Shown: piece after piece, positions 9,064-63,809 of the stretch | How positions within the stretch are numbered: position 1 is the stretch's first letter | Layout of the letters: each line of letters starts with the position of its first letter | Origin: Anthopleura xanthogrammica | Taxonomy: Eukaryota > Cnidaria > Anthozoa > Actiniaria > Actiniidae | Assembly: GCA_964019055.1 (NCBI GenBank) | Contig: OZ025222.1 | Location: 5,948,746 to 6,012,745 of the forward strand | Reading direction: 5' to 3' | Length of the DNA stretch: 64,000 nt | The notes under the pieces: generated by a model | What the model saw: the letters and a program-made list of their open reading frames with translations, nothing else | What the model was told of the DNA's origin: nothing | Database searches by the model: none | Position numbers and translations under genes: made by a program

Positions 9064-9072
9064 TGGATGCTT

Positions 9073-9972: not shown

Positions 9973-10004
9973 GTTTTCTTTTATATGATGTATTTCTTTC
10001 CCAT

Positions 10005-10679: not shown

Positions 10680-10702
10680 TTTTGATATATTAAATACTAT
10701 TC

Positions 10703-11387: not shown

Positions 11388-11400
11388 ACCATTTATATCC

Positions 11401-11589
11401 TTATCTTTTTTTATCCTTATATCGTTCAACCACATACGCCACCACAGCCAGAATCAACAACCACGTATTCTTAGCTAAGAACCCCACAACTTCCCCCGCT
11501 GTCTTGAATATGAATGAAGCAATAGTGCCTATCAACCCAGGTAGCAACCCCGCCAACTTTTTGTTTAGATCTTTCAACCCCCTTCCCAT
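11401..11589 (-). CDS. Small Polinton membrane-active protein
   Basis: 62 codons. A short basic amphipathic start (MGRGLKDLNKKLAGLLPGLIG) is followed by two hydrophobic stretches and a charged end (ERYKDKKR). Overlaps the upstream gene end (11574) by 16 bp, typical of coupled minus-strand genes in this block. Role unknown; an amphipathic/hydrophobic protein of this size could be membrane-lytic or a virion cement, which is inference. Confidence 0.5.
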   Translation of the reverse strand: MGRGLKDLNKKLAGLLPGLIGTIASFIFKTAGEVVGFLAKNTWLLILAVVAYVVERYKDKKR

Positions 11590-12356: not shown

Positions 12357-12358
12357 AT

Positions 12359-12854: not shown

Positions 12855-12907
12855 TTTATCTTTCAATGAGAAAGATAAGTGTTTAGGTGTTTTTTTTCAT
12901 GCACTCC

Positions 12908-13135
12908 TCAGACAGTCGAAGGTAAGATCTTCTTCGCTTCTAGGTACTCCTTCAAATACATGGAGCCCGCAAGCACGGCCACCCACTTACCATAGTTCGT
13001 CAAGCTATTGGATGGATCGTTAATGAATGACTCCTTCATCATCTTCTTTCCTAAGTAACTTATTCCCGCAGCAATTCCGATAACTACTGCAGATTCCGTG
13101 ATGTTTTTTACAATGTCGTTTTCTTTCTCTGGCAT
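12908..13135 (-). CDS. Small Polinton membrane protein
   Basis: 75 codons, ATG start. Polar start (MPEKENDIVKNITES), one hydrophobic segment (AVVIGIAAGISYLGKK), a middle SLTNYGKWVAVLAGSMYL that could form a second membrane segment, and a charged C-terminus. Function unknown; same strand and spacing as its neighbours. Confidence 0.5.
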   Translation of the reverse strand: MPEKENDIVKNITESAVVIGIAAGISYLGKKMMKESFINDPSNSLTNYGKWVAVLAGSMYLKEYLEAKKILPSTV

Positions 13136-13157
13136 ACCTTTTTATTTGATGGGCTTA

Positions 13158-13363
13158 TCATTGCTTATATGATTTTTGTCTGGGCCCTTCCATTCCTATC
13201 CTCGGTTTTGTCCTACAACTTGTGTCGTGTGTGGGAGTGGGAGTGGGAGTGGGAGTGTTATCCATTGGAGTTGGGGGTTTGGAGGTGTCGGACTGGAAAG
13301 GCGTGGGGTTACTCTTTTTCCACCTAAAATATAGATCGAAATATAGTGTTATTCCTACCAAGG

Positions 13364-13365
<2 letters not shown>
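13158..13365 (-). pseudogene. Polinton small protein fragment, truncated by insertion
   Basis: The C-terminal about 65 codons read out of a hydrophobic segment (LVGITLYFDLYF) into a Pro/Thr repeat (TPTPTPT, encoded by a GTGGGA-type microsatellite on the plus strand) and end at 13158. Its N-terminus is lost: upstream, the frame runs into an AAT/TAA microsatellite and the 3' tail of a retroelement inserted at about 13366. Confidence 0.5.
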
Positions 13366-13402
<37 letters not shown>

Positions 13403-13575
13403 TATTTATATAGCGTAAATTCCTAAAGTCCAAATACGCTTCACAATAATATAAACAAACCCAAAATAAACATAACAAGACGCTGGTGGCAGCGTGCACT
13501 GGGTTACCTGGATCGGGTGGGACCAGGGGGAGGGGGAGGGTCCTAGGGTGCCCTTGACCCACCCTGTGTGGAAAA
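13366..13575 (-). mobile_element. 5'-truncated non-LTR element tail
   Basis: On the minus strand the sequence ends TATATAAATAAAG followed by about eleven TAT/ATT units (13367-13400), a tail form typical of CR1/L2-type elements. About 170 bp of 3' UTR-like sequence, including a C-rich stretch (13520-13560), precedes it. No coding part remains. It interrupts the small Polinton gene. Confidence 0.5.
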
Positions 13576-14848
13576 AGAGTGATCAATTATAAGATTAGCT
13601 GACTGTAATTTGGTTTTTAATATTTCGTATTTTCGATGTATCGTACTGTCGAGGCCCTCGTTTTCTTTTTTCGTCGTTTTTCAAAAGACAGTGAGAGACT
13701 GCCTACTATAAATGTACAGTGAAAGCCATCTTGGAAAAAAAAGTTAAATGAAAAACTAAATCATCGAAAATACCCATTTTGGTGAAGTCCAACTTCCATA
13801 TCCTTAATTCCGATTCCAGTCGGAGTTTTATCATACGTAATTAAGTCGCAGACAGAAAGTCGGCAAAGCGAGCTGACGGAGACACGTTTGCTTGAGGTCA
13901 GCATTATTTGTTTACTACATGAATCCTTCGTTTAGAACGGAAGACGAGCAAATAATAGCTCAAATTGCTCAAAACTACCCTCAAAATTGTTTTATAATTT
14001 TCTATATTCGTAAATATCTGTAAATCAATCGACAGTTCGTAAATATTTAACGAGTGAGCCGGGAGTTGAATGACTTTATAAGAGATCGATCTGAGAGTCA
14101 AAATGCATGCGTTCGATTTAACAATATCTCTCATTACTCTTCAGTTCTTAATATCAAAATGAAAGCCCCAATAAACTTCTTTGTACCTCATGTTTATTTG
14201 TAGTAGTCTTGTTGAGTCAAACTATTAAATATAGCATCCGAGAATCGGGTCGGTAGAACTCAAATGAAGTCAGGACGTCCCATCGGTTTGATTTAGCTTG
14301 GAGCGCGTAGAAATTCTTTAACACAAGAATTAAATATTGGCCATGGCTAGCTTTTTCCTTTTGTACTGATACTACAGATAATACAGCTTTAAATAGCTGA
14401 GTCAAAGCACGAGTAGTTAATCAAAGTTAGCCATTTGCCGTGAGTAATGAAAATTCTTCAGAATTCCTGGTTCGATTAGAATTATGCTTGTTTACGAATA
14501 AATTAAAAATTCTGACTCGGCTCACTCTTAAATTACAGCAGTCAACAAAATAGAGCATGCGTAGACATTAATTTATGTCACGTGATAAGCTAGCTCCGCC
14601 CTCTCTTAATTAGTTGGCAACGTAGTGACATTGATTGACAGTTGGCACATGCTAATTGATCAGACTATTAGACAGGAACCCTGTAGCAGATGCCTGCTAA
14701 GGCCTCTTGGGTAAAGTTCTGAAGACCCCTGGGTACTATTGCACAACTTTGCCATTTTGTCGCGAAGGAATCAGAAAGAAAAAAAAAAAAACGAAGGTAT
14801 TTTATGACTGGTTTACCACAGGTAACCCAGTAATAAAGTAAAGCCTAA
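13576..14848. other. Non-Polinton filler sequence, no gene
   Basis: AT-rich, unlike the flanking Polinton, with only short shadow ORFs. A poly-A run at 14778-14790 is the only distinct feature. None of the expected missing Polinton parts (C-terminal half of the capsid protein, ATPase, protease) can be read here on either strand, so this DNA probably arrived by insertion and replaced Polinton sequence. Confidence 0.45.
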
Positions 14849-14857
14849 ACTAAAACG

Positions 14858-15805
14858 CAGAGGAGTGAATAGTATCCCACAGTGCTTTGCGAAGATACAT
14901 TTTCAATATGGCGGGAATTCGTCGTCTTCACTAACACCAACGCGAAAAAAAATTTTTTTAATCTAGCAACGAGGAATGTTTCTACTTTTCTATATTATTG
15001 GGCAAGATCTAGAGATAATAATTGATCGTATCTGTAATTTTAGGCTTGATTCGATGAGTTTGGAACGTATGATTTGACATTTTCTCCAGAGTCGGAAGAT
15101 TTTTTGTTCTTGATAATTTGGTTGATATTTCTCTATGCGTAACTTAATAATCTGAGGGTCGATCTCGCATATTATTTGCCTCCTACTTAGTATGTTATCT
15201 TAGCTTTAAAATGAACCTAGTCCGACCCAGATCGACCCACGTTTTCAATAAGAAATGATGCATTATGTTTGACTACTTTTCATGTGTTAGACCTTGCCAA
15301 CTCTGGTATCTGAGAGTTGTCACGTGAAGCGTTCTCAGTTCACATCGATCGCAATCGACTCTATTCCATTTCTAAGTGTAGAACCAATATGGTTATTTAT
15401 TTATTTGTTTTAAACTCTGTTCCTAAGATAGACTTTCGTTTTGTGTTTCAAAATAGACCAAGCTCAATCCAACATGACTTGAATGAATTAAATTTCTTAC
15501 TACGCGAGGTCAACTGGCTTTGACCTTGAGTGGCGGACATCCAAATGTAACTCTCTGTTAAGTTGTTAAAAACACGGCAAACTAAACTTTTAATATTTTC
15601 AATGGTTTTTATTTTACTAAATAAAATACCTAAATCCCTAATCTAATCCTTTGTGATGCTTGTTTCCAATTCTGAAGGATCTATTTAACGAACCCTCTTG
15701 CTCTACTCGCTTCGCTGACTTGAACACAATGATCAACGTGCGAAGAAAATTGATAATATACATGCTTTCGCAATGCACTGTGGGATACTATTCACTCCTC
15801 CTCTG
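14858..15805. mobile_element. 948-bp non-autonomous DNA transposon with 9-bp target duplication
   Basis: Left end CAGAGGAGTGAATAGTATCC and right end the complement of CAGAGGAGGAGTGAATAGTA; inverted repeats of about 35 bp with a 3-bp indel. The flanks are ACTAAAACG at 14849-14857 and again at 15806-15814, an exact 9-bp duplication, which fits Mutator-like or Merlin-like chemistry better than hAT. No coding capacity. It is nested within already inserted DNA, so it is the youngest layer here. Confidence 0.8.
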
Positions 15806-15876
15806 ACTAAAACGATTATAAAAGTGACTATAAAATAAGGACAGTCATAACATAGTTAATAAAGCCGGAAAAGTGA

Positions 15877-16560
15877 TTAATCTATAGAATAAGCCTGCTT
15901 GAAAAGATAAGTTTTTAGCCTTTTCTTAAAGATACAGATGGAACTACTACTTTTTATATCGTAAGGAATACTATTCCAAAGTCTGGGCGCACAGACTGAA
16001 AAAGCGCGCAAACCATTCGTTTTAAGGTTATATACAGGCTCAGCCAATAAAAGCTTGGAAGAAGATCGCAAGTTGCGACGAGGAACATAGGGTTCCAGTA
16101 AAGCTACGAGATAATCTGGTGCCATACCATTAAGTACTTTACATGTTATAAGTAGAATCTTAAAAGTGATACGATAATCAACTGGCAACCAGTGTAATTC
16201 CATCAAAATAGGGGTGACGTGATCATACTTATGTGAAAGCGTAATTAATCTAGCTGCACAATTAAATACATTCTGTATTCGTTTAGTCAGATATTGTGGT
16301 GAACCATATAAGAGCGCGTTGCAGTTATCTAGACGAGAAATAACAAAAGCATTAATTATTACCTTAGTGGTTTCTAGACTTAAAAATCTCCTGATACGAG
16401 ATATAGATCTAAGATGGTAAAAAGCTGACTTGCACAGTTCAATGATGTGTCTATCTAAGCAAAAAGAGCTGTCAAAGACAACTCCAATGTTCCTAACACA
16501 GTCTGATGGTACGATCATCGAGTCACCAACTTGAACTTGAACTGAATCAAGTGATGGTAT
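15877..16560 (-). pseudogene. C-terminal reverse-transcriptase fragment (CR1/L2-like) inserted in the capsid gene
   Basis: 228 codons in one frame, matching the region after the RT palm: VGDSMIVPSDCVRNIGVVFD, FVISRLDNCNALLYG, RIQNVFNCAARLI, LMELHWLPVDYRI and the terminal LWNSIPYDIKSSSS. The catalytic core, endonuclease and ORF1 are absent (5'-truncated). The frame is fused by chance to the preceding capsid codons with no stop, so a chimeric ORF runs 15877-16776. It differs in family from the three CR1-like copies elsewhere in the window. Confidence 0.75.
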
Positions 16561-17497
16561 CATGCCATCGGAATACAGCTTATGAGGCACACTATTCACG
16601 TTGAATTTCACTGAGTCCCTAGCGCAGGCCGTATTTGGCTCTATGAATAGCATTAGGATCCCAGTCATCGATCGTAGGGGCAAGTTGACCTGTTCGTTGA
16701 TTACGGTGTCCTTTTTCTTGTCGATGGGGAAAGACTTATGCATCAATACGTTCTCATAGTAGAACCCCCTACCCATTTAGCTGCTTAATGCTTCACTTGC
16801 GAGATATTCGCTGGTAATGGTCTCATACTCTAGTTCTAGGTTGGATAGGGTATACTTAGCATCTGCTTGGTCTGAGGTTACGATTTTTGCACTTCCTGAA
16901 AGAGTAAACTGAAAGAGTAAACTGAAAGAGTAGGGTATCTATTAATCCGTTGGAATAATATACTCCATGAGAGTCGAGGATGGTGTGGGATATGGGGATC
17001 CTGTATCGTGTTCCATACACCTTAGCTAAAGCAACTTCTGCAGCATCATCCTCAGTCTTATCCCCCGCTTTCGTCCTTAGTTTCCTCATGTTTTCTGAGG
17101 AGATCCCTTCTCTTAGCCTATTCTTTCGTTCTTTCTTCGTGAGGAATAAGTCGCCGTAAGTTTGGTAGAGGTCATATCGAACCAAATCTCCTATTGGCTT
17201 TCCACCAAATGTGACTTTCATCTGTTCGACGAGGTTCTTACCCAGGTTATTAACCACGGTCTTATTTTGATCTGCGGTGGCCCCATCCTTCAAAGAGAGA
17301 TCCACCAGGAGTGCCACACTTCCGGGGGCAATAACGACGTTATCCGGTAACTTGGGTATGTGAACGGACAACGTTCGTCCAGGATCAGCTGTGGCTGGGT
17401 TAAAGCTTATGCGATGAATATTCTTCTCTGCTTTGAGTCCAAAGGCTTGCCTATAAGGTCTATATACGTTGAGTTTTTCTGAGATTGCTTGCGACAT
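16561..17497 (-). pseudogene. Polinton major capsid protein, N-terminal part, broken
   Basis: ATG at 17497; the first about 200 codons (YRPYRQAFGLKAEKNIHR..., VEQMKVTFGGKPIGDLVRYD) match the double-jelly-roll capsid protein of Polintons. Near 16896-16934 a 13-bp unit (CTGAAAGAGTAAA on plus) is present three times; two copies keep the frame and the third shifts it. The reading resumes as KIVTSDQADAKYTLSNLELE, meets an in-frame TAA at 16777-16779, continues (MGRGFYYENVLMHKSFPI, GILMLFIEPNTACARDS) and stops abruptly at 16561, where retroelement sequence begins. The C-terminal jelly roll is absent from the window. Confidence 0.8.
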
Positions 17498-17541
17498 CCT
17501 TTTTCTTATTTATGTAATAACAAGTTACTCTCTTAGATACT

Positions 17542-18519
17542 ATGGAGGAAAAGCTTTCAAACACTTATTATTCAACTGAAGGATATTGGAAGGGATATTC
17601 TGCGATTTCGAAACTATCCAAAGCGACGGGCATTTCTGAAGAGATAACAAGAAAGTGGCTCATTAAGCAAGCCTTATGGCAAATATATTTCCCTGCCCCC
17701 ACCTACATCCCCAGATTTCATTGGAACATTTCTACCCCCAATGAGATCCATCAAGCAGACTTACTATTTTTGCCTCATGATGTCGTAAAGAGAAAGACGT
17801 ATAAGTATGCTCTCGTGGTGGTGGATATTGCTTCTAGGTACATGGATGCTGAACCTACCTCCACAAAATACTCCACAGACATATCAAAGGCTTTTGATAG
17901 GATTTATTCTAGATCATTAAGTTGGCCTAAGACACTGATGGTAAACCCAGGAACAGAATTCATGGGGGAAGTTACGAAAGTTATGAAGAAACGTGAAATA
18001 AAAGTCCAAAGATCAGAAGCTGGAAATCATAGAGCACAATCCCTCGTGGAGCGCGCTAATCGAACACTAGCTGAAAAGTTGTTTAGTCATCAGTATGCTC
18101 AAGAGATGATTATGGAAGAGGGAAGATCACGAGAATGGGTGAAACGACTCCCTGCTGTGATACGATCTATTAACAACGGAGTTAAGAGGAAAACAGCAAG
18201 CAATGCAATAAAGTCAGAGTCCGTTGAGACGAAGAACCCTATGTACAAAAGACCCGTGGGATTGAAAGAAAATAGGATCCCTGCAGGGGTGAGTGTTCAA
18301 TACTTATATGCTGTGGGGGAAGAGGAGGGGGGTCAACGACGTGCTACTGATCCCATTTGGTCTTTAGAAGCTTATGACCTATCACGCGCAACCATCTCTC
18401 CTAATCAACCCATGCTTTACTATCTTTCTGAAGGAGCTCCTAATCGTTCTTTTGTTAGGGAGGAGTTACAAGTGATTTCTGAGGACACGGAACTACCACC
18501 GGATAGTGTTTTAAGCTAG
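17542..18519 (+). CDS. Polinton integrase with Asn at second catalytic position
   Basis: 325 codons, ATG start. The N-terminus (YWKGYSAISKLSKATGISEE) is the usual Polinton form without an HHCC finger. The catalytic core has Asp73 in HQADLLFLP and Glu170 in LVERANRTL, but the position of the second Asp is Asn135 in LMVNPGTEF (codon AAC at 17944-17946), 34 residues before Glu170. Retroviral-type integrases need all three acids, so the enzyme is predicted inactive for strand transfer although the frame is open. It is divergently arranged with the capsid gene (about 45 bp between starts) and overlaps the 3' end of PolB by about 65 bp. Confidence 0.9.
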   Translation: MEEKLSNTYYSTEGYWKGYSAISKLSKATGISEEITRKWLIKQALWQIYFPAPTYIPRFHWNISTPNEIHQADLLFLPHDVVKRKTYKYALVVVDIASRYMDAEPTSTKYSTDISKAFDRIYSRSLSWPKTLMVNPGTEFMGEVTKVMKKREIKVQRSEAGNHRAQSLVERANRTLAEKLFSHQYAQEMIMEEGRSREWVKRLPAVIRSINNGVKRKTASNAIKSESVETKNPMYKRPVGLKENRIPAGVSVQYLYAVGEEEGGQRRATDPIWSLEAYDLSRATISPNQPMLYYLSEGAPNRSFVREELQVISEDTELPPDSVLS

Positions 18520-21500
18520 CTCTTCGAATGTAATGACTGTGGGCATAGGTCGTGATAGGATCTTCCTGGAAGATTATTCGCTTGTCGTCTTTTGAGGAAA
18601 GAGCAATCTTATTAACCCTTTCTGAAGTTATTTCGTGTAAGCGACTCCTAAAGACTCTCATCGTTCTCATGACTTCTTCTCCACCCAATAAGCAATCCTT
18701 ATAATGTGCAAACCGGATACTCCTTTCCACGACGCATTTCCTAACCCCCTTACACTTTTTTTCCTCTCTTCCCTCCTCTGTCAAGAAACAATACAGCTTT
18801 GATCTCAAGGTGACAAATTCCGTAATTTGTTCTCCAGCTGTTTCGTCCTTCATCATTCCTATCACTTTTTTGTTGACTATTCCTTATTCCCCTATGGTTT
18901 TCGGGGTAGTTGCTCGTATCAAACAACCTCTCGATATCCCCTTCTATGTCCTTATAAAAGTTATTCGTATTAATTTCGTAGATTAGACTATCAGTATCGG
19001 TGTATAGGAGAGTTGCCTTGTCATCATATTTCTCCTTTACGTAGTTATAGTGGAAGTCATACATGAATCTTTTGGATAAGTCCAAGATAGACATTCCTAG
19101 GTACGTTGGCTTGTTGTACTCTAAGTGTGTTCTTCTCATGTGGATTGCAGCTAAGCTTTCTGAGAATATCGTAGCTCCCACATAATTAGGCTTACGGGTT
19201 AGCTTATTCGCCTGCTTCTCATTTGTCACCAACCGTATGTCTCGTCGATTGCGAATGTTCTCCATAGTCTTCCCAAAGACAGAGTTGTTCATGAGTTTGA
19301 AGAAATCCTTCTCGAAGTCGTTCTGAGCTTTTTTCCTCAATTCTGTGTTCAGATCTATGTATTTTTTCAACCAAGGGGATTCTTCGAAAGTAATACCTCG
19401 GTGGATCTTCGTGATTTTTAATCCCTGACCCTCATAAAATCTTAGGGTGTCGTGATGAACTACATAGTGGGACTTATAGTAGAAGTTTGGGGTGAGCTTC
19501 ATTACTCCACTCTTCGACTTAAGGCGTTCAGGGGCAAGGGGATAGTCGTTATGGAGGTCGTGTAATTCCTGGGGGTACTCTAGATCCGCCTCCAAGATAC
19601 AGGGAGTCTTTTTCCAGTTCTCCAACTGCTTTTCTTCCATCCATTCAAAGCCATGGGTTGGTAAAGGTTGGGACATTGCCCACCCATAGAGGTTGTTTGC
19701 GTCTAGATAGGGTATGTAGATGGACTCCTTTCTTGGGTCATAGCCCTTCATGTACTTATTATTAGCCTTCGCATAACGCTTACTTCCCACAGAGGAAACT
19801 CCTCCTCGAATCCCGCTTTCTACCATTAAGAGCATGTCGATGTCACTAAGAAGCTCCAACTGGATGTTCGTGATTTTCAACATAGCATCCCAAGCAAGTC
19901 TGGGGGCCGTATAATACCAAGCGGGGTCTAAGTCGTAATACCTCCTACAAATAATCCTGAAGTTCTCGAAGACGTCTGCTAGGAGAAGGACGTCGGTTTT
20001 GAGGTATAAGTCGTGATAGTCTCTCATTGTTTTCATGTCGAACACCCTCCATACTTTCCACGCATGATCATGCTCTTCCTCTGTGATGTCGGTATCATTG
20101 AGCTCAGAATGAAAGGCTTCCATGGGAGGTAAGCGAGGTTCTAATTTTGTGAGGGAATCCATATACTCATAGGGATACACCCCTTTTCTCATCAATAAGT
20201 CGAGCTGTCTACCTCCATAGAACCAGCTCATGGTCTTGAACTGGTCTTTCGCCAGGTTATTAGTGAGTTTACTTAAGCTCGAGGACATAAACTTGTAGCT
20301 GTCTAAGAACCTCACTTCCATATAGATGTCGCGAATTTTCCCATCTTTGCCCCTATAGTGATTCACAACAATTCTTTTACTGAAGGAGATGTATTGTTCC
20401 TCATTTCTTGCGATACATCGGATCTTACCCTCACTGATTCCCAAGGCTTTTATGAACAGGTGAGCGTCGTATCCTGCTAGATTGTGAAAGAAAATGCGAA
20501 TGAACTTAGGGAGCTTGTAGTGAAGGTTACATTTATCATGAGCTGCTCCTCGATATCTTCCCGTGAGGAGGTTGTGATCTCTTACCTTATCATTCCCCAA
20601 CTTTTCCTTACAGATGTGGCAATGTGTTGCTTCTTGGTGTTCTTTTCGATCCTTGTCGGACATCATGAGCTTCTTTACTCTCGAAAGCTTCTCATATAAG
20701 ATTAGGACATCCTCTTCAATTGATCTAATGAAGTGTTCTCCCAAGTCTTCCTCCTCATTTTGGGCGGTGTATTTCACGATCTTGGGAGGAAGCATGTTGT
20801 CATCAGATTTGATCACGTAACAGTACCCTGATGGTTTGTGTCTTTGGTAAGGTTCCGTAGAAGGTTTCTCATGGTGGTTAGAACAAGAAGCAACTTTTTC
20901 TAACACACTCAAAATCAGCGTAGATTACGAAAGGGACTCTCATGGAATGAGGGTGGTTCTTAAAATGGAGTAGGGTTCCTTTCTTGGGTACGACGATTTT
21001 TACGGACTTGTGTTGTCCACAGTATTCGGAATGTTTTTGGAGAACGTACTCATCGGTGAAGGAGTTAAAACATCTTAAGCAAAAATGTTTCTTATGTTGG
21101 TGGTTTGATAGCTGGGAGGACAAGAGCCTCGACAAATTCTTGATCCAACAATAGTGGTTCGTTTCCTTATCGGAGATTAGTAGTAGGGTTACGGTGTGTT
21201 TCCTGTTTTCTCCATCATAAATTTTAAGGGGGTAGAGTTCCGTTTTTTCATACCCTAAGACGTTAATTGCGTAGTTCCTGTTGTTTTTCTCAAAGACTTG
21301 GATATCTCGGAGGCTTGTGGGAAAGCGAAGTCCATCCCAATTCAACCCTTTTGAATTCTCCTTAAGCGCCTCTGATATTTTCCCAGGATTAGTCTTTGGT
21401 GTAAATCGGGCTATGGTTACCGCCCACTTAAAACATTGACTGTCTTCGTTCTTGGGGTTGATGATGGCTTTCCTCAGTGCTAATTCTTCAGGAAGTGGGA

Positions 21501-22143
21501 TGTACGTGCTAGCTAGTTGGAATCTTGCAAAATGAATGCTCAAGGATACTACTTTCCTTAGGATCCAGTTCGAACCTTCTTTTTGGAATTTGCTGACTCT
21601 TTCTAGGATATCCTGGGAAAGTTTTTCATACAGCTCTATTAGATTCGTGGATTTCGTCACTCTTTCTGGTTCTGTGTGGAAATGTCCTTCGCTAGTGATT
21701 TCTTCTCCATTATTCCCAATCTTGTAAAATTCGCATAACAGATAGAGCTTCACATTTGCGGGTTTCTCATATACCCATATGGTCTCTATGATACGTTTCT
21801 TCTTCTTTCTCGTGAACTCGGCGGGGTCTGTGTCACCATCACGTCCAAGGATTCTATGTTCCTTAAGATATGATTTGAATGAGGATCTTTCCATGGTCCT
21901 TCGTCTTTCCACCCTACGATAAATGCTTCTTATTCTTCTCCTTAAGACCTTGATGCGGTTATTAATGGGCCTTCTGATAGCAGGGCGAACGATTGGTAAT
22001 AACCACTCCGAAAAATCTCTTAACTCATCCTGAATTCCTTCGGCGATAGGTGGTATTGGACTTGATCTTGGATTCGTTGGTGGAGATGGGGGTAGTATTG
22101 GTACGTTAATCTCAGGGATGGGCTTATCCATGAGGTTTGACAT
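18455..22143 (-). pseudogene. Protein-primed DNA polymerase B of the Polinton, two frameshifts
   Basis: Three consecutive frames make up one about 1,230-residue polymerase. Part 1 (22143-20878) has a Pro-rich, Arg-rich N-terminal region, a Cys-His motif (HFCLRCFNSF...HSEYC) and exonuclease motif I (VIYADFEC). The frame then shifts near 20905. Part 2 (to about 18870) has HCHICKEK, FFHNLAGYDAHLF (ExoII), YLKTDVLLLADVFE (ExoIII), YLDANNLYGWAMSQPLP (polymerase motif A), KLMNNSVFGKTMEN (motif B) and LLYTDTDSLIYEI (motif C, YTDTD). A second shift falls near 18870. Part 3 has KVIGMMKDE and LRSKLYCF. Catalytic motifs survive, but two breaks make the gene non-functional. Confidence 0.9.
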
Positions 22144-22246
22144 CTTTTTCCTTTATAGTATGTTTATATGTTCTTTAAACATATTTTTTTTCCATTTTTG
22201 CCTCCCCTCCATAGATATCAAAGAACATCTTCTTTGATATCTCACG

Positions 22247-22609
22247 TCACTTAGACTTCATCATCACATGCCCTTCAGGTAGCTCCTCTTCTTTAAAATA
22301 AGCGAAGTCATATTGTTGACCATTAATCTTAGATCGTCCGGTTTTCGCATAACCTTTTCCATCACAACACGCCTTGATGATACCAGCATTTATCCCCAAA
22401 CGCTTTTGTGTCGCATACATGCTGTAAAAATAGGTCTTTTCTTCGGTGAGTAGACTCGTGGCTATTACGCACTTCCTATTCTTGCGGCTGTTTGCTAGAT
22501 AGGAATAATCACTCTTTTTGGGTGGCGTAGGTGGTTCTTCGGGGGGTGGGGCTTGTGGCGCAGGCGGCGGTGGTGGTGCAGGTGGTTCGTTTTGAGTAAG
22601 TTGGTTCAT
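22247..22609 (-). CDS. NUMOD-like DNA-binding protein encoded within the Polinton TIR
   Basis: 120 codons, ATG start. Residues about 8-32 are a Pro-rich linker; about 60-110 (YATQKRLGINAGIIKACCDGK, then GRSKINGQQYDF) resemble the NUMOD/helix-turn-helix modules that accompany homing endonucleases, where a helix pair is followed by Gly-rich and aromatic residues. No nuclease domain is attached. It lies wholly inside the right terminal repeat, so an intact element would carry two copies; the left one is deleted. A role in binding the ends or regulating transcription is inference. Confidence 0.45.
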   Translation of the reverse strand: MNQLTQNEPPAPPPPPAPQAPPPEEPPTPPKKSDYSYLANSRKNRKCVIATSLLTEEKTYFYSMYATQKRLGINAGIIKACCDGKGYAKTGRSKINGQQYDFAYFKEEELPEGHVMMKSK

Positions 22610-22884
22610 GACGTGTTTGCGTGCTTTTCTGGATATGCCTTTCCTACTTTTTTGGGAAAGAGTGTCTTCACGAAGGCAAGTGGGTGGGGGTATGGGGAAT
22701 AGTTCGTAGGTGCCGGGTTGTGAAGGGTGATTAAGGGTGATTAAGGGTAAGGGTGATGGTTTGTCTTTGACGTTTTTGTTTTTGCTTTTGCTTCTTCTTC
22801 ATTTGTCTTTGGTTTTGGGTTTCTTTACATATAGGCAATATTTTTTTTGATTTTTTCCTTCTTTGGATTTCCTCCGTTTTTTCA
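22610..22884. other. TIR spacer without gene
   Basis: G/T-rich sequence with GGTGATTAAGG repeats and a pyrimidine-biased TTTTGC stretch. It probably contains the promoter of the 22247-22609 gene; no motif can be named. Confidence 0.4.
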
Positions 22885-50390: not shown

Positions 50391-50582
50391 TTTCAAAAGA
50401 AAATTCACTCTAATGGCCTAATCCTTTAGAAATGTATAAATAAAAGTCACGTGCAGAAAGCAAATTCTCGTGTAAATGGTGTGAACTCATTGAAAGAACA
50501 AAAAAATACCTAATTAGCTAATATTTTCATAAGCGTGAGCCCTTCATTATGCAGTCTGCTTTTTGTTCGGTATGCAGAAAAG
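50391..50582. promoter_or_regulatory. Divergent intergenic region of the DM transposon
   Basis: About 190 bp between the DM gene start (50390) and the first in-frame ATG of the transposase (50583). It must serve both directions, but no TATA box is clear. An alternative plus-strand frame from ATG at 50551 (MQSAFCSVCRKD) is short and probably not the transposase start. Confidence 0.35.
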
Positions 50583-51559
50583 ATGTCCTGGAAGATAAAC
50601 ATCCAAGGAGGAAGTTATTGTCATGGCTCTGCACACTCTCAGCAGAAGAGGCTCGACATAATAGTTTCGTTTATTAATACACAGTCAATTGCTGCAACTT
50701 CCATCAATTGTAAGGTGAGCTACAATAGTGTGTCGAAAATAGTTGCGTTGTTTCAGCAAAAGGCGACACTGCTCACGCAAGTCCACTCCAATTCCCGTCC
50801 TAAAGTCATACCCTGGTGGTTGGAGCAATATATTGAAGCCATTTTGGTGTTCTATCCCACCTTGTATATAAGAGAAGTTCAAACGATGGTAGCAGATGAT
50901 TTCAACCTCGCCGCCAACGATATCCCATCCTGTTCTTTCATTAGCCAGCTTCTTAAACGGCGATACATAACAAGAAAGAAGTGTGCTATTGTAGCAGTTG
51001 AGAGATTCACTCCCTTTATTCAACAAAACAGACAGCATTTTTTTCAGTGGCGTAGGACTGTGGATCCTAGAGAAGTTTACTTTTTCGACGAAACCTCATT
51101 TGCAACTGATACAGATGAACGCAAGTATGGACGCAGCGAAAGTGGTTATCCTGTCCCATGCTATCGAAAGAAATCGCCAACCACTTGCAGCAATTCCGTG
51201 TTAAGTGTTGTAGGGTACAGAGAAGGTGTTATCATGGCCATACCAGTAGAAGGTAACTTTAACATACCGCTTATAAATGATGTCATTACAAATCAAATTC
51301 TACCTCTAATACCACATAATGCCTATCTTGTGGCAGACAATACAAGCGTGCACAACGAGTTTGAGTAGTGATGTTACCCGCCTACAGTTACGACCTAAAT
51401 CCAATAGAACAAGTTTTTGGGCTGGCAAAATGCATGGCTCGACAGACGCCAGGTGCTTTAGAAGAAAACATGCTACTCTCCATAATTAATGCTTTTATTA
51501 AAATTCGCACTTCTGCTGTAAGAAACTTTTATAGAAGGTCTTGGCGAATTTTCGTTTGA
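50583..51559 (+). pseudogene. Tc1/mariner-type transposase, broken
   Basis: From ATG 50583: helix-turn-helix (RLDIIVSFINTQSIAATSIN, KVSYNSVSKIV), DDE core with YFFDETSF (first Asp), YLVADNTSVHN (second Asp), stop at about 51366, then in another frame LPAYSYDLNPIEQVFG (the Tc1-type end motif with Glu). Between the second Asp and the last Glu fewer residues remain than the usual about 34, so a short deletion accompanies the stop. The enzyme would be inactive. Confidence 0.75.
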
Positions 51560-55423: not shown

Positions 55424-56317
55424 TTGACAGGGTCAAGTCTTCAACCTTCTTCAATTCCGACATACCGAAGGGCATGGAAGCTTTTCCATCAATTTATGGT
55501 GACCATTTTACCAGGTACACCTTATACCATCCCCCTTTCTCCTCCTACTGTGGCTCTCTTTATTGCTTATTTATATGATCGGAAATATGCCGCATCTACC
55601 GTTAATACATACGTTTCAGCCATAGGATATAGCCATTGACTGTCGGGGTTCCCAGACACCACCAAAACATTCTTTATCACACAAATGCTAAAAGGGTATG
55701 GGAAGCTTGGTTCTCGTCTGGATTGTAGATTACGTATTACAGTGCCAGTTCTGCACAGAATTCTTAGTGCCACGATGCAAATGAGAGAGACGAGATACAA
55801 TACATGCCTATTCCAAGCTATGTGCTTGTTTGCCTTTTTTACATTCGCTAGAATAGGCGAGATTACGGATTCGGCTTCAGGCAACAACATTCAGCTTAGC
55901 CAAGTTACTAAGCTCACTAATTCTACTAATGAAGTAGAATCACTTAGAGTTCAGTTTTGTAATTACAAAAACAATTATAACCAGCGCCCCTTTTCACTGG
56001 TGATTTCTAGACAGTCTTCTTTTTGTCCAGTCGAGTATTTATTGAAATACCTTCAGCAGAGAGGTTTTAGGATAGGTGCTCTTTTCGTCATGCTAGATGG
56101 CAGTCCGGTTTCACGATCTTTTTTCACTGACAAGCTCACAACAGCCCTTCGGTATGGTGGTCTTGATCCCGCTAAGTACAAGGGACATAGTTTCCGCATT
56201 GGGGCTGCTTCATATGCAGCCGAAAGGGGGATGTCTGATGCTCAGATTAGAGCCATGGGACGTTGGAAGTCAAATGCTTTCCAAAAATACATTCGCATTC
56301 AATCTTTATCTCAATGA
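55424..56317 (+). pseudogene. Tyrosine recombinase, one in-frame TGA
   Basis: An N-terminal SAM-like part (TYRRAWKLFHQF, ALFIAYLYDRKYAASTVNTY, SAIGYSH) runs to TGA at 55637-55639; the same frame then reads on to 56317. The catalytic domain shows the first Arg in FTFARIGEIT, HSFRIGAAS (His-x-x-Arg), GRWKSNAFQKYIR (Trp and the nucleophile Tyr). So R, H, R, W and Y are in place; the hairpin Lys lies probably in FCNYKNNYN. A single nonsense codon separates the two domains. Confidence 0.75.
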
Positions 56318-57432: not shown

Positions 57433-58839
57433 AGAGAAGATGTTTCAAATTATCGCCCGATATCATTACTTTGTGTTACTTCTACTTGCGTTGTATCTTC
57501 AATCACGTGAAAGCTCATCTGACCAATTCATTTTCTAACTGTCAACACGGCTTCTTAAAAGGAAGATCTACGATTACACAGTTGCTTTCTTTCTACCATC
57601 GTGTTGGTCAAGATTTGGACAAAGGTATGCAGACGGATATCATTTATTTAGATATTGCTAAAGCTTTTGATAGCGTCTCCCACAACAGACTAATCTTTAA
57701 ACTCTCTCACTATGGAATATCTGAGTCGCTGTTGAGATGGTTTGAGAGTTACTTGTCAGATCGTAATCAGTGTTGTATTGTACAGGATGCAACATCAAGC
57801 AGTCATCCAGTGTTATCAGGAGTTCCCCAGGCCGGGGAGCATAATTGGGCCACTTCTTTTTCTACTTTATGTAAATGATCTACCTTCATTTGTTGACAAC
57901 ACCTTGGCACTATTTGCTGATAATTCCAAGTGTTTTAAAGTCATAGCCTGCCCTGATGATTGTACCTCTCTACAAGATGACCTGGACAATCTAAAAAGCT
58001 GGAGTGAAGATTGGAAACTACGCTTTAACACAACTAAATGTGAAGTTCTATCTGTAACACGCAAAAAGAACCCTATTGATCACGTTTATCAAATAAGCAC
58101 TGACTCTTTAGTCCATGTATCGTCTCAGAAAGATCTGGGTGTAGTGATATCGAGTGATTTGAAATGGAACACACATATTAATAATGTTATCTCTAAATAT
58201 TATCGTATGTTGGGTTTCCTTCGTAGGCATAGCCCTTCTAGTTTTGATTCTAATACAAGAAGATCGTTATATTTAGCTTATGTAAGATCTCATTTAGATT
58301 ATGCAAGAGAGTTGTGGGCTCCACAGTCCATAGGAAATATTTCTAAGCTAGAATGTGTCCAAAGAAGGGCTACTAAGTATATCCTTAACCTTAAATGGAG
58401 TGATAATATCACTTATAAAGATTGTTTAACTAAGTTAAACCTACTGCCAATTTCTTATAGACATGAGATTACTGATCTTGTTTTTTAATTTAAATGTCGT
58501 TCAGTACGCATAGATTTTCCTATTAATGAGTTTATTCAGACTAGGGTAATGGTTCGTTCTACTCGTAATAGCAATTCCTCTGACTTGCTAATAACGAAGT
58601 GTCGCACTAAACTCTTTCAAACTAGTTACTTTAATCGTTTACCTAAGTTGTGGAATAATTTACCTGTTTCTCTTCGTACTTGTAGCTCTTTTGAACAATT
58701 CAAGTCTCAGCTAACTGCTTATTATAATAACGCTCTTAAAAATGCTTTTAATATTAATATGTTTAATACTTGGAAATCTATCTGCCTTAAATGTTGTTCT
58801 TCCCGCAATGTACTAAAGACAAATGCTTGCTGTTATTGA
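57433..58839 (+). pseudogene. CR1 copy 3, RT C-terminal part
   Basis: SNYRPISLL, then a frame change near 57470, GFLKGRSTITQLL, YLDIAKAFDSVSHN, SGVPQ, another frame change near 57830, GPLLFLLYVNDLP and ALFADNSKCFK. The catalytic box is FADN where FADD is required. Then CEVLSVTRKKN, DLGVVISSDLKWN, a TAA near 58486, and the C-terminal LPKLWNNLPVSLRTC with a Cys cluster. Related to copy 1 by its C-terminal motif. Confidence 0.8.
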
Positions 58840-58840
58840 G

Positions 58841-59045
58841 TAGAAGTTATTATTATCAGTATCTAATTATTTTTAAATAGAAGTGATTTTATAGTTTTAT
58901 ATTTTTATTATTAGAAGTGTTTAATAGTCTCTATTATTAGTATACAAATTTCTATAATTTTTAATTCCCAATTGTTTTATTTATTTATTTATTTACTTTC
59001 ATTTTTTTATATTATTAGTTTGATGGACGCACTGTAATTGGAGCC
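58841..59045. other. Short AT-rich gap
   Basis: AT-rich; TTTATTTATTTATTTA run near 58980. It may be the 3' UTR of CR1 copy 3. The bases TA at 59046-59047 flank the next element. Confidence 0.4.
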
Positions 59046-59046
59046 T

Positions 59047-59333
59047 ACAGTAAAAATCGAAATGTGTTGATACACTACCCCTAGAATGTTCCCAAAATTG
59101 GCTGTGTTAAATGACTGATGTACACTGTACGCTCCCCCTCCCCTCCCCTTGCAATGTTGTTTACATGGCCAAAGTTTGGTACCGTGAGCTAGCCACATTC
59201 TCAAGGAACAACATTGAATGGGGGAGGGGGGGATTTAGTTTATATATGATTTTTAAAGCGCTTTTTCTTACACTGCATGCTTATTTTTTCCAACATTATG
59301 AGGTAGTGTATCAACACTTTTGATTTTTACTGT
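59047..59333. repeat. 287-bp end repeat, left copy
   Basis: No base difference seen from 63213-63499. Its own ends are inverted (ACAGTAAAAATC ... GATTTTTACTGT, continuing to GTGTTGATACACTACC against GGTAGTGTATCAACAC), so it looks like a MITE. G-rich GGGGGAGGGGGGG near 59220. The 70-codon ORF inside is identical in both copies but has no coding signs. Confidence 0.85.
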
Positions 59334-59966
59334 CTGAGTATTGTTTACCCTCTTACTTTTAATAACGCTGTTCTGGAATAAGTTTGTGTTGTATATTCTA
59401 TTGGTATATAAGTGAGGATAATAACAAAGTCATAAACATGGATCATTACTTTTGGTCTATAGAGTTATTTCTACTTATACGAAATTTAGGGTGTTGCATC
59501 AATTTCTTCTAATTACCTTTCGAAATAGCATTTTCAGGTCATATTTCAATTACGAAGCTAAAAAAAATCCAATTAGCCTTTCTTGCATAAGCAAAGGGCG
59601 GTTTTTAGTACATTAGGTTAAGTGCCATATGTTCGTGATCTTTTTGTTGACATGACTTTCGAACGTCATGACATATTGCACATTAAAGGTGGGGTTTAAC
59701 GTATAGGAATTGCGTTATGTGATGTCATTAATCCCTGCTGTGGGTGTCATATGCACTTGATAAGGGTATAAATTGAATCCTGCACAGCAATATTCAGTGA
59801 TTTTTTGCTATATGCTTCTGCATAGAGTGGAAATAGTACTAGTAATCAAAAAGTGGATATCGAAGTTTGAGAAAATATTTTTTTAAAGCCTAAAACGTGC
59901 TATACTTAGTTTTGCGTTACTCTTGGGAAGAGGTACACCCTGTGGATCATTGATAGCTTATTCCTT
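59334..59966 (+). promoter_or_regulatory. Upstream region of the Rep gene
   Basis: About 630 bp without ORF. GGGTATAAATTG at 59765-59776 is a TATA-like box about 195 bp before the Rep ATG. No iteron of the type found downstream (GGTCTACC) occurs here. Confidence 0.4.
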
Positions 59967-61472
59967 ATGGAAATGGAGGAGCAAAATTCAACGAATATCT
60001 ACAGTCAGTCTAATGAGAGTGATGTTAGATTTACGGAAGTTGACAAAGAAGAAGGAGAAGAAGTAGCTGAGGTTATTAGAAGTTCCGAATTGAAAGAACG
60101 AGCGGTAAGGCAAGTCTACTTGATCACCTATAGCCAAGCAAACCTTGAAGAGTTCCCATCTCGTAGAACATTTGCTAACGCCGTGGTGGAATCTTTCGAA
60201 TCTAGTGGTAACGTAAAAATCTTGCACTGGGTTTGTTCTAAGGAAAGGCACAAAGAAGGCGGATATCATTATCACATGGCTATAAAACTCGATAGATGCT
60301 GCAGATGGGAACAGTCCAAAAACACCTTAAGGATGGAACATGGTATATCAGTGCATTATTCTAATTTGCACTACAACTACTATAGTGCATGGAAGTATGT
60401 TACCAAGGAAGATAAAGACGTAGTTGAAAGCTCACAACATCCAAAATTATGGAATACCAAACCTCCCAGAACCAGCAATGCATGTACACAGAGAGTTGAA
60501 TGCAGGCGTTCTCCTAAAAATAGTAGGGAGGATGGAGGAGAAGAAACGTCAACGTCCAATACTAATAGTGCAGGGAGTGGTGGAAACTCTCAACAAAAAG
60601 GCAAGACGAAAAGAAAAAGGCAAAGATTATCAGCATTTGATATCTCAGAAATAATTTTAGAAAATGATATCAAGAGCCGTACCGAATTATTAGCCCTCGC
60701 GTATGAACAAAAATTAGAAGGAAAAACAGATATAGCGGAATTTGTTGTAAATAGAGGTGCAAAAGTTGTAGCAGACGTCATAGATACGGCTTGGGAGATG
60801 ACAAAGGCTAAAGAAGATCTAGATCGAATTGCAAGCACGCGATTAGAAATACTCCAAGAGGCAATGACAAAGGAATGCGTGTCCGGATGTAACGAACTTT
60901 GGTTTTATTGTGCAAATCAAGTGCTAGAAAGGAATGGAATAAGAGTAGAATCCTATGCCAGAGCTTTACATGACCTGATAGTAAAAGGTAGACGAAAGTA
61001 CAGGAATATAATGATAGTGGGACCTGCAAATTGTGGGAAAACTTTTATGCTTAATCCGTTGAATACCATATATAAGACATTTTCTAATCCTGCCAGCACT
61101 ACCTTTGCTTGGGTTGGAGCTGAGCAATGTGAATCCATATTTTTAAACGATTTTAGATGGTCACCTCAAATTATTCCGTGGCACGATTTCCTTCTCCTTT
61201 TAGAGGGGCAAACAGTTCATCTACCAGCTCCCAAAACACACTATGCAAAAGATATAACTTTTGAGCGTGACACACCAATATTTTGTACTGGAAAATATCC
61301 ATTAGTGTACATTAGAAATGGAGTAATCGATGAAAGAGAATCTGAAATGATGTCTGTACGCTGGAAGATATTTAATTTTAATAGTCAAATACCAGAGGAG
61401 GAACAAAAATCAATTCCTTCATGCCCTAAATGTTTTGCAAGGCTAATATTGTCTCATACGCAAACAGAATAA
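59967..61472 (+). CDS. CRESS-type Rep: HUH endonuclease with SF3 helicase
   Basis: 501 codons, ATG start, uninterrupted. Nuclease: motif I YLITYSQAN (51-59), motif II GYHYHMAIKL (99-108, HYH metal ligands), motif III AWKYVTKED with Tyr144 and Lys147. A Ser/Asn/Gly-rich and basic linker (about 180-220) follows. Helicase: Walker A GPANCGKT (352-359), Walker B ESIFLNDF (389-396), motif C region DTPIFCTGKYP (435-445) with Gly-Lys where viral Reps usually have Asn, and a C-terminal CPKCF. The enzyme would nick an origin and unwind for rolling-circle replication. Length exceeds circovirus Reps (about 310) because of the linker and N-terminal extension. It is closest in type to Reps known as endogenous elements. 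Confidence 0.85.
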   Translation: MEMEEQNSTNIYSQSNESDVRFTEVDKEEGEEVAEVIRSSELKERAVRQVYLITYSQANLEEFPSRRTFANAVVESFESSGNVKILHWVCSKERHKEGGYHYHMAIKLDRCCRWEQSKNTLRMEHGISVHYSNLHYNYYSAWKYVTKEDKDVVESSQHPKLWNTKPPRTSNACTQRVECRRSPKNSREDGGEETSTSNTNSAGSGGNSQQKGKTKRKRQRLSAFDISEIILENDIKSRTELLALAYEQKLEGKTDIAEFVVNRGAKVVADVIDTAWEMTKAKEDLDRIASTRLEILQEAMTKECVSGCNELWFYCANQVLERNGIRVESYARALHDLIVKGRRKYRNIMIVGPANCGKTFMLNPLNTIYKTFSNPASTTFAWVGAEQCESIFLNDFRWSPQIIPWHDFLLLLEGQTVHLPAPKTHYAKDITFERDTPIFCTGKYPLVYIRNGVIDERESEMMSVRWKIFNFNSQIPEEEQKSIPSCPKCFARLILSHTQTE

Positions 61473-61508
61473 CGCTATGATGACGAATGAAATTTGAACC
61501 ATTTATAT

Positions 61509-61605
61509 GAACGGTCTACCACGGTCTACCAAGATACTTAAGAAGATTAACCATTGTTTTCTTAAACCTATTGTGGTAGACCGTTGCGATTTGGTAGACC
61601 GTTCG
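61509..61605. other. Iteron hairpin, candidate Rep origin
   Basis: A tandem 10-mer ACGGTCTACC twice (61511-61530) and its complement GGTAGACCGT twice (61575-61584, 61593-61602). The outer arms GAACGGTCTACCA and TGGTAGACCGTTC pair, and TTAAGAA/TTCTTAA (61538-61544, 61559-61565) close an inner loop. It lies between the convergent 3' ends of Rep and transposase. Repeated short sites around a stem-loop are how CRESS Reps recognise origins; the usual TAGTATTAC-like nonanucleotide is not present. Confidence 0.6.
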
Positions 61606-61909
61606 TAGTATAAGATACACTTATAGAAGTAAAGCTATCGCCATTTCAGAACGTTCTGCAGTATTTTTTGAACCAATTCAAGTTGAAATTTTATCGTTAA
61701 AAGTTATAGAACGAATATATTCGTAGGCAAAGTGTTTATTCATGAGTTTATACCTAATACCAGAAATAGGTAACGTATTAAATGTACATATGTTGAAGAA
61801 CTTATGCTTGTTGTTTGTGTTTAGGAAATTTTGTACAAGGTAACGAAAGCTTATGTAAAATATTTGAGAAATTACATAACAACTTGGATATATATGTTTC
61901 AATATTTTT
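61606..61909. other. Spacer between Rep and transposase 3' ends
   Basis: AT-rich without ORF. It probably carries the polyadenylation sites of both convergent genes. Confidence 0.4.
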
Positions 61910-62992
61910 TCAATATTTCAATCTTTGTCCTCTATTCTGTATTATTTCATTGATACGTTTATACATACTTCCAATGATCTTATCTATGACACTTGTGTCA
62001 ACAGAAAGAAAAGCTCGTTTAATTCGAGCAGTAAATTCTAGCATGTTTTCGTGCGTAATTTTCTTGTTGAAAGCTTCATTAACCAGAATTCTCTTTACAA
62101 TATGAAAAAGATTTTCAATTGGATTTAAGTCAGGACTTCTTGGAGGAATGGATAATATTTTAGCTTTTACACTGAGAAGGGCTTTCTTAGCAGCAGCACT
62201 ATTTTGACTAGGATCGCCGTCTTGTACAAATAAGCGAGACTTTCCTTTGTTACACTTCTGAAATGTCTTCTTAAAATGTTTCTTTATGAACATAGCAAAC
62301 ATAGGACCATTTAAGTGTTCGTATTCTTCACATAAAACTATTCCACGGTCATAAGATATAGCTACCATTAACTTAACAACTCTACCTCCCGATCCAACGT
62401 GTGATCCCTTAGCTGTACAACCTCTGGTTAGTCCTTCACTTTTCTTCAGCCAAACGCGTCCAGATGGTACACGAGCTTGTTCGTAAGGATTGTATTTGTG
62501 GTGAAAACTAACCCCATCCAAATAGAAACATACATCTTTCGTCCAAATATTACAACTATAGTCGTTCTTTATCTTCCGAGCGAAACGAACTCTATCTCTT
62601 TGATCTTCCTCTGACAAAACGCCTTTTTTTCTTGCTGGTAAAAACTTATAACCAAGTCTATTCATTGTTTTTCTCACCGTTGATATTGAGATATCATTGC
62701 AACTCAGTCCCATTGCTTGAAGAACGTCCTTTGCTGTAAAATTGCCGTTACTTTTGCGAAGAGTTTTGATTGTATTCACCATCCGTCGCTCCCCACGTTC
62801 ATCTATCTTACGAGGTCTCCCAATTCGCTTTTTCTGTATTTTTCGTTTTCGTACCTCCTCCAGACATCTATAAACACTGCATTTCGAAATTTGGCACTCC
62901 TCAACTATTTCTTGGACAGTTAAGGTTGTATTTTTTCTCAAATATTTGACATAAGCTTTCGTTTCCGCAGGAATCTTGCATTTAAATGCCAT
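61910..62992 (-). CDS. Tc1/IS630-type DDE transposase, intact
   Basis: 360 codons, ATG start, no stop inside. An N-terminal helix-turn-helix (TVQEIVEECQISKCSVYRCL) is followed by the GRPRK motif (58-62), a second HTH (FTAKDVLQAMGL...STVRKTMNRLGY), then the DDE core: Asp159 in CFYLDGVSFH, Asp258 in LFVQDGDPSQN, Glu293 in RSPDLNPIENLF, 34 residues after Asp258. All catalytic residues are present, so it could act on the TA-flanked ends of this element. It converges on Rep with about 440 bp between stops. Confidence 0.9.
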   Translation of the reverse strand: MAFKCKIPAETKAYVKYLRKNTTLTVQEIVEECQISKCSVYRCLEEVRKRKIQKKRIGRPRKIDERGERRMVNTIKTLRKSNGNFTAKDVLQAMGLSCNDISISTVRKTMNRLGYKFLPARKKGVLSEEDQRDRVRFARKIKNDYSCNIWTKDVCFYLDGVSFHHKYNPYEQARVPSGRVWLKKSEGLTRGCTAKGSHVGSGGRVVKLMVAISYDRGIVLCEEYEHLNGPMFAMFIKKHFKKTFQKCNKGKSRLFVQDGDPSQNSAAAKKALLSVKAKILSIPPRSPDLNPIENLFHIVKRILVNEAFNKKITHENMLEFTARIKRAFLSVDTSVIDKIIGSMYKRINEIIQNRGQRLKY

Positions 62993-63212
62993 TTTTAGCG
63001 CGCGTTTATTATGAGGTCATAAGATTTATTTTCCAATTCGAATTAGAATGATGTTTGTGTGTTCCATTTCTAGTACTTGTTGTTCAACTATTTGTTGAGT
63101 TATAACTCGTATGGACTCTACGAGGGAATGAAATAGTTTTCTGAGTAAAATTGCAGTGTTCGATTGCTTAAAAATAACTCTAGCTTGCTACATAAAAGAA
63201 AGACATTTTCAG
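62993..63212 (-). promoter_or_regulatory. Upstream region of the transposase
   Basis: About 220 bp between the transposase ATG and the right end repeat, without ORF. A TTATTATGAGG-like AT stretch lies near 63010; no clear TATA box. The terminal ATTTTCAGA mirrors TCTGAGTAT at 59332, the inner border of the left repeat. Confidence 0.35.
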
Positions 63213-63499
63213 ACAGTAAAAATCGAAATGTGTTGATACACTACCCCTAGAATGTTCCCAAAATTGGCTGTGTTAAATGACTGATGTACACTGTACGCTC
63301 CCCCTCCCCTCCCCTTGCAATGTTGTTTACATGGCCAAAGTTTGGTACCGTGAGCTAGCCACATTCTCAAGGAACAACATTGAATGGGGGAGGGGGGGAT
63401 TTAGTTTATATATGATTTTTAAAGCGCTTTTTCTTACACTGCATGCTTATTTTTTCCAACATTATGAGGTAGTGTATCAACACTTTTGATTTTTACTGT
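63213..63499. repeat. 287-bp end repeat, right copy
   Basis: Same length as, and no base difference seen from, 59047-59333. Ends ACTG followed by TA at the outer side, which forms the right half of the target duplication. Confidence 0.85.
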
Positions 63500-63588
63500 A
63501 GTTCTGTTGTGTGTTCCTTGCCCAATATTATTTATCTTGTTTATCTATCTTAGTTTTATATTTTAAAGAGATAAAAAGCCCTCGAAGT

Positions 63589-63596
63589 TATAAAAG
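63589..63596 (+). promoter_or_regulatory. TATA box of the 63645 gene
   Basis: TATAAAAG, 49 bp before the ATG; a second ATAAAAAG lies at about 63571. Spacing predicts transcription starting near 63620. Confidence 0.55.
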
Positions 63597-63644
63597 CCGA
63601 ACTTTCTTGTGGTCATCGCTTGCACCTTGAAGACTGAATTCGCC

Positions 63645-63809
63645 ATGGCTGACCAACTACCTCAAATACCTCAACTACCTGAAAACGCAGATGTCGTTCA
63701 AGCCCCTGTCGTTGAAGCTCCGCCTGTGCAAGTCGCTGACGAAGCTCCAGCCGTAGTAGCTGACGTGGCGGAAGACCCGCCCAATGATCCTCCACAAGCT
63801 TTGCTGGTA
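63645..63809 (+). CDS. First exon of an Ala/Pro/Val-rich protein (partial)
   Basis: ATG in Kozak context (GCCATGG). 55 codons: acidic, rich in Val, Ala and Pro (DVVQAPVVEAPPVQVADEAP), ending at GCTTTGCTG before GTAGGTGG. The open frame beyond the donor turns hydrophobic and Lys/Cys-rich without the same composition, so an intron is likely. The rest lies outside the window; no family recognised. Confidence 0.5.

Follow-up and report, generated by a model that had tools for sequence, protein, structure and literature searches.

Related systems

Cut-and-paste transposons are known to gain copies only through host replication or repair. Helitrons move by means of a Rep protein (RepHel, with a superfamily 1 helicase) and are not known to carry a DDE transposase or to produce a target duplication, and Teratorn is a piggyBac transposon joined to a herpesvirus. 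Here we describe an element of 4451 bp from the sea anemone Anthopleura xanthogrammica, located at 59048-63498 of a stretch of 64,000 nucleotides (C19:5948746-6012745, hereafter the window; C and L numbers denote contigs and loci), which carries a Tc1-type transposase gene and a gene for a Rep protein of HUH and superfamily 3 (SF3) helicase type between two terminal units in direct repeat. We consider it likely that this is a hybrid element in which two movement systems operate on one end unit, the Rep copying a one-unit circle and the transposase inserting at CTAG. Rep-driven movement, as proposed here, would be shared with the Helitrons, from which the element differs by its DDE transposase, by the SF3-like helicase part of its Rep and by the duplicated TA. 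As in Teratorn, a transposon is joined to a virus-type part, the partners being different.

No element combining Tc1 and Rep was found in the titles and abstract beginnings of the literature matches listed, the scope of which lay outside most subscription journals, bioRxiv beyond PMC, and Repbase. Among these matches, the nearest known system is a geminivirus-like transposon of the truffle Tuber melanosporum, described as a consensus with one interrupted Rep open reading frame (ORF), two transposase ORFs (interrupted, truncated), 37-bp terminal inverted repeats (TIRs) and no obvious target duplication (PMC3198968). Rep-like and transposase ORFs thus occur in one repeated element, as here, but the account in section 8 of that paper mentions neither direct-repeat units nor empty sites. 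DENSOV_HM of Hydra (Repbase, cited in PMC3198968) is likewise a cnidarian repeat with a parvovirus/E1-like protein; the section citing it mentions no transposase, and it is set apart from the present element by description only. RepE1 cressviruses endogenised in sea anemones also place an E1-like Rep in cnidarian genomic contigs, but have candidate capsid genes, and the word transposase is absent from the main text of their description (PMC11071296). Coral CMITEs are small repeats in tandem arrays with an inner region better conserved than their TIRs, the origin of which was left open (PMC2872659). They share the conserved inner region and the tandem arrays with the units described below and differ by a TTAA target and piggyBac-type ends, as judged from their published description (PMC2872659).

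Insertion as a single piece

The two genes are convergent and both ORFs are unbroken, as an earlier note on this DNA had read them, and they occupy element positions 920-2425 (Rep) and 2863-3945 (transposase). Coordinates within the window are given in Table 1. The outer ends of the element are CAGTAAAAATC and GATTTTTACTG, and TA is found on their outer sides only, again as had been noted. The earlier description of the ends holds for the outer inverted termini and has to be extended for the remainder, which is more than short repeats: the element begins and ends with the same 285 nt in perfect direct repeat.

The genome (290 Mb in 125 contigs) was searched with the two flanks of the element joined. 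Of the 34 rows obtained, 20 cross the insertion point, 12 are confined to one side of it and two are the halves of the window itself; the element sits within a repeat. A single C-TA-G was present in all four crossing rows that were read, in place of the C-TA-element-TA-G of the window. Unit, genes and second unit were therefore inserted together as one piece, at CTAG and with duplication of TA. The joint insertion claimed from the outer TAs is thereby confirmed, and no sign of two independent insertions was seen in the window.

The 285-nt unit is itself a scattered repeat: a first look gave 167 candidates, and the 40 that were scored are 94-100% identical. Five close pairs account for ten of the scored units and a truncated copy (L021/L052) for one; for the other 29, any scored partner is more than 12 kb away. 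Flanks of the form C-TA and TA-G were found in 10 of 11 lone units read.

The truncated copy (L052 4221-8711; C20:6672000-6681900) corresponds to element positions 1956-4451, is broken by 868 bp and has an exact right end but no TA. Two stretches of 565 bp (98.6% identical) enclose it, the arrangement resembling an abortive insertion accompanied by a long duplication.

Transposase and terminal units

The transposase matches DDE_3 and, in sequence, the catalytic domain of Sleeping Beauty (5cr4, E 2.4e-12). The alignment to Sleeping Beauty places a DD34E triad, in which 34 residues separate D258 from E293, and the inverted terminal repeats of the outer ends are 27 nt long (85%). Tc1-type enzymes leave a 3-nt scar on excision, and the CAG found where a middle unit is missing in two tandem loci (L022 and L046, see below) fits this rule. 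Excision of the whole element was not seen among the copies examined. The element thus has a homologous transposase, TA duplication, CAGT-type ends and a 3-nt CAG scar in common with Tc1 and Sleeping Beauty, and is a variant of the Tc1 (DD34E) DNA transposons on the features tested. It differs from them by the added Rep and by ends consisting of 285-nt direct-repeat units with a hairpin core that also occur alone. Apart from the element, the window contains a transposase-like ORF at 50514-51368, with a PAX-like helix-turn-helix and a DDE_3 match under the cut-off.

Each unit bears Tc1-type ends (CAGT...ACTG) at both of its edges. The predicted folding energy of the unit is -57.1 kcal/mol, compared with -26.0 (standard deviation 3.6) for shuffled sequences (z -8.7; 0 of 200 as low). 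Four classes of unit share a core of C-tract, CAATGTTG, 35 to 54 nt, CAACATTG and G-tract, and by eye the remainder of the unit differs. The third class adjoins a decayed transposase (L053; loop of 35 nt) and the fourth (L069-L071) was found by the pattern itself. Genome-wide, CAATGTTG-N40-70-CAACATTG gave 269 matches against one for the reversed control; this is not a count of units, as it includes an unrelated repeat without C and G tracts (L072), the 35-nt loop of L053 falls outside the pattern, and only the first places were listed. The conservation of the core across classes suggests that it may be the Rep origin. On C1, three identical unit cores (20627382, 20642568 and 20658155) lie 15.2 and 15.6 kb apart, probably as a segmental tandem duplication bearing a lone unit.

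Identity of the paired units

The 40 scored places include five pairs of units lying within 12 kb of each other, where chance would give 0.08, and in each pair the orientation is the same; at L022 the pair encloses a tandem, its units being the outer ends. The two units of a copy show no differences in any of the five copies, compared with a mean of 7.5 and a minimum of 1 when 24 units were compared in the 271 other combinations. At 19 columns the five copies are not all alike; 10 of these columns single out the window copy and the other nine one of the four remaining copies, and at all 19 the two ends of every copy agree. Under plain cut-and-paste, the ends would gather changes singly. Identity of the units within each copy therefore means that each copy descends from a one-unit stage or is homogenised by conversion, and the paired end units, judged from these sequences, appear to behave as in long terminal repeat (LTR) elements.

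Three short copies (L023-L025) have 1.4 kb between their two units. Three blocks of the element are represented in them (1-950, 2342-2788 and 3919-4451), separated from one another by a few tens of bases, so that most of both genes is missing and the block spanning the gene junction (2342-2788) is kept. Their units are 95-96% identical to those of the window, and the blocks with inner sequence 75-88%; on account of the latter, these copies stem from a diverged relative. L022 is a head-to-tail tandem of two short copies, of which the second is broken by 2.4 kb. Its middle unit is gone and CAG is found instead (TTTTCAGA-CAG-TCTGAAAA). A comparable scar, AAAATA-CAG-TATTTG, is present in L046, a member of a second family described below; here the second copy is cut short, so that beyond the inner right end only some 180 nt of another inner left end are present. 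The ends of this family are CAA/TTG and not CAG/CTG, and the CAG of L046 therefore fits only as mixed repair of two overhangs. These scars show that a unit can be cut out alone, leaving CAG. The 2.4-kb insertion in the second tandem copy of L022 (about 3142-5571) contains repeated CAGATTTTT and AAAAATCTG motifs, the orientation of which is reversed between one half of the insertion and the other.

The same observations could arise if the ends were kept identical by chromosomal gene conversion or unequal crossing-over, tandems being formed likewise and the Rep acting elsewhere. Recombination between direct repeats is possible at distances of 1.4-4 kb, and tandems are known for LTR elements. However, conversion would have to be complete in five of five copies, and it leaves both the direct layout in two families and the common hairpin core unexplained; we regard this explanation as improbable.

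Rep protein

The window Rep alone gives a weak Pfam match to PF23343, under the family cut-off. When it was aligned with 19 relatives (n = 20), PF23343 was matched by 13 of the sequences, Parvo_NS1 by five and PPV_E1_C by four (E up to 0.01). None of the 20 sequences departs from H101, H103, Y144, K147 or the Walker A residues G352 and K358. In the PDB, the best match of the structure model (pLDDT 78, pTM 0.50) is Rep68 of adeno-associated virus 2 (AAV2; Foldseek E 7.2e-12, 526 alignment columns, TM 0.36-0.38, root-mean-square deviation 17.4). Given the low TM and the high deviation, the domains of the Rep model do not superpose on Rep68 as one body. The viral fold matches of the model are NS1/E1 proteins, its helicase part matches SF3 proteins, and identities in the fold listings are 9-16%. 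A Rep profile gave no match among the sequences of solved structures, and the window Rep alone gave two chance-level matches. Scans with two peptide patterns, limited in reach, yielded 21 fitting stretches in viral contigs, none of which was confirmed as a Rep relative, and prokaryote genome contigs scanned with two peptide patterns yielded 12, again with none confirmed.

The HUH and SF3 architecture is shared with parvovirus Rep/NS1 and papillomavirus E1, and both the fold near NS1/E1 proteins and the hairpin ends would suit an endogenous single-stranded DNA virus, of parvovirus type or with a circular Rep-encoding genome (CRESS), that was captured by a Tc1 transposon, in which case the units would be viral terminal hairpins. 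We consider this very unlikely. The scan of viral contigs confirmed no relative within its reach, and the ORF scan of the element showed no capsid gene and no third ORF of at least 100 aa, the largest other one being 96 aa. In addition, the units have transposon ends at both edges and occur alone at TA. Terminal hairpins of parvoviruses are inverted and take flip and flop forms, which would give mixed orientations, but all five pairs of the first family, and L047, have their hairpin units in direct orientation.

Association of Rep and transposase

The second family, represented by L046 and L047, has the same layout. Its transposase is 48% identical to that of the window, with an unbroken ORF of 355 aa at both loci, and is convergent with broken Reps that are 38-57% identical to the window Rep by piece. 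The unit in L047 is 188 nt long, in direct repeat and 100% identical, with TA outside and, unlike in the first family, also inside. Of 46 genome candidates for this unit 40 were scored, and all seven lone ones read have C-TA and TA-G flanks.

Rep sequence was found at nine loci in this genome. A transposase is present in the window copy, L046 and L047, which have most of the Rep, and in the partial copy L021/L052; five short Rep fragments (L045, L048-L051) have no clearly belonging transposase, L048 having a transposase fragment 4.4 kb away. Conversely, transposase sequence occurs at eight loci, four of them with Rep (window, L046, L047 and L021/L052). No Rep was found within the fetched stretch at the decayed transposase loci L053-L055, and a weak match on C11 is the eighth.

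Outside this genome, the best 120 of 835 Rep relatives and the best 120 of 1119 transposase relatives were listed. Among the contigs longer than 8 kb in these matches (46 for Rep; 58 for the transposase, from the searches with the window and the family-2 transposases), four sizes are identical (13745, 14921, 327380 and 515071), equal size being taken as the same contig. A control of 1000 shifted comparisons gave 19 matches (0.019 expected), and the family-2 transposase search added no further shared long contig among the matches listed. Rep and transposase relatives thus appear to share contigs elsewhere, and the 13745 and 14921 contigs are the only ones that bound the distance between the genes. 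Rep and transposase distances are also correlated, with r 0.73 for nine pairs (2 of 20000 shuffles) and r 0.83 for seven contigs (12 of 5040). That the two genes travel together is supported by the layout of the second family and by the equal-sized contigs; a Rep lacking both transposase and end repeats was met only as short fragments, at five of the nine Rep loci. Shared sizes of short contigs (3485, 3803 and 4136) were rejected as proof of linkage, as seven sizes were equal in all and a shifted list (+18) also gave seven, in a comparison that covered 119 of the 120 transposase sizes.

These data bear on a plain Tc1 composite, in which two units resembling miniature inverted-repeat transposable elements (MITEs) flank the genes by chance, movement is by cut-and-paste only and the Rep is a viral passenger. 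The TA duplication, the DD34E transposase, the lone units with their own TA, the CAG scars and the TA on the inner side of family-2 units would all be expected of such a composite. Independent units should, however, differ and stand in either orientation, but are identical within copies and all direct, and those of the first family have no inner TA. Nor would a passenger account for Rep catalytic residues invariant in 20 of 20 aligned sequences, or for the relatives of both genes on four equal-sized contigs. We therefore find the composite unlikely, although slightly less so than homogenisation by conversion.

Proposed life cycle

Rep systems release a unit-length circle where two origins stand in direct repeat, as in geminivirus dimers. 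In the hybrid element proposed here, the Rep would nick the hairpin core of the unit, and rolling-circle synthesis from origin to origin across the direct repeats would produce a one-unit circle that replicates as an episome. Multimers or head-to-tail products of the circle would again present unit, genes and unit, which the transposase could re-insert at CTAG. Passage through a one-unit circle and re-insertion from a multimer would explain the identical ends. Since transposon ends are present at both edges of the unit, the transposase can move either unit-genes-unit or a lone unit, accounting for the lone repeats and the scars; from a monomer circle, nothing but the unit could be moved, giving the many lone units. 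Of the life cycle suggested in the earlier note, episomal amplification followed by integration, TA-targeted integration stands, and the episome, which was not seen directly, is backed indirectly by the identical ends, the direct orientation and the tandems.

With somewhat less confidence than in the hybrid nature of the element, we favour its assignment to a new class of eukaryotic mobile elements with two alternating states, a one-unit circle replicated by the Rep and a chromosomal two-unit form inserted by the Tc1-type transposase. The unit would be both origin and transposon end, ends would be renewed in an LTR-like manner without reverse transcription, and escaped units would become MITE-like repeats. 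If this is true, the element's own replication step would be another way for cut-and-paste elements to gain copies, and Rep replicons could become established in genomes by means of the two enzymes. The element also offers a source for MITE-like repeats with an inner part better conserved than the ends, such as the coral CMITEs as described (PMC2872659).

Several points weigh against this life cycle. No circle, concatemer or nick was observed in the analysis of assembled sequence, and nothing other than conservation backs an origin role of the hairpin core. Gene conversion could also keep the units identical, and unequal crossing-over could make the tandems. One of the 11 lone units read (L013) has no C-TA and TA-G flanks, and the copy at L021/L052 is shortened, without TA and inside a 565-bp duplication. 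Equal contig sizes are indirect evidence of linkage, and on the contigs of 327 and 515 kb the genes could lie far apart. Three of the co-distance pairs, present in both sets, come from short contigs, and for the other six pairs the test fails (r 0.27, 150 of 720).

Features of the element and the window

Table 1. Positions in the window of the features of the element
Feature	Position	Strand	Description
Left TA target-site duplication	59046..59047	.	preceded by C (C-TA)
Left 285-nt terminal unit	59048..59332	+	long hairpin; edges CAGTAAAAATC...GATTTTTACTG
Left-unit hairpin core	59134..59232	+	C-tract - CAATGTTG - 49 nt - CAACATTG - G-tract; candidate Rep origin
Inner left junction TCTGA	59333..59337	+	without TA; one short copy begins alike
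Rep	59967..61472	+	501 aa; HUH H101xH103, Y144xxK147, SF3 helicase, Walker A GPANCGKT at 352-359
Inverted repeats ACGGTCTACCA / TGGTAGACCGT	61506..61607	.	between the convergent genes
Tc1-type transposase	61910..62992	-	360 aa; DD34E D159, D258, E293
Inner right junction TCAGA	63209..63213	+	without TA
Right 285-nt terminal unit	63214..63498	+	direct repeat, 100% identical to left unit
Right-unit hairpin core	63300..63398	+	same core pattern
Right TA target-site duplication	63499..63500	.	followed by G (TA-G)

A search of 58800-63800 of the window with Rfam gave nothing at gathering scores. Elsewhere in the window, 8421-22798 looks like a Polinton/adintovirus-type element, with an rve integrase at 17521-18519 (Pfam E 6e-5) and a major capsid N-terminus at 16856-17509 (E 9e-5), both weak matches, and with long ORFs at 18750-22152 that read like PolB by eye and have no Pfam match. 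In addition, an ORF at 55685-56317 has a weak phage-integrase (tyrosine recombinase) match under the cut-off and is perhaps DIRS-like.

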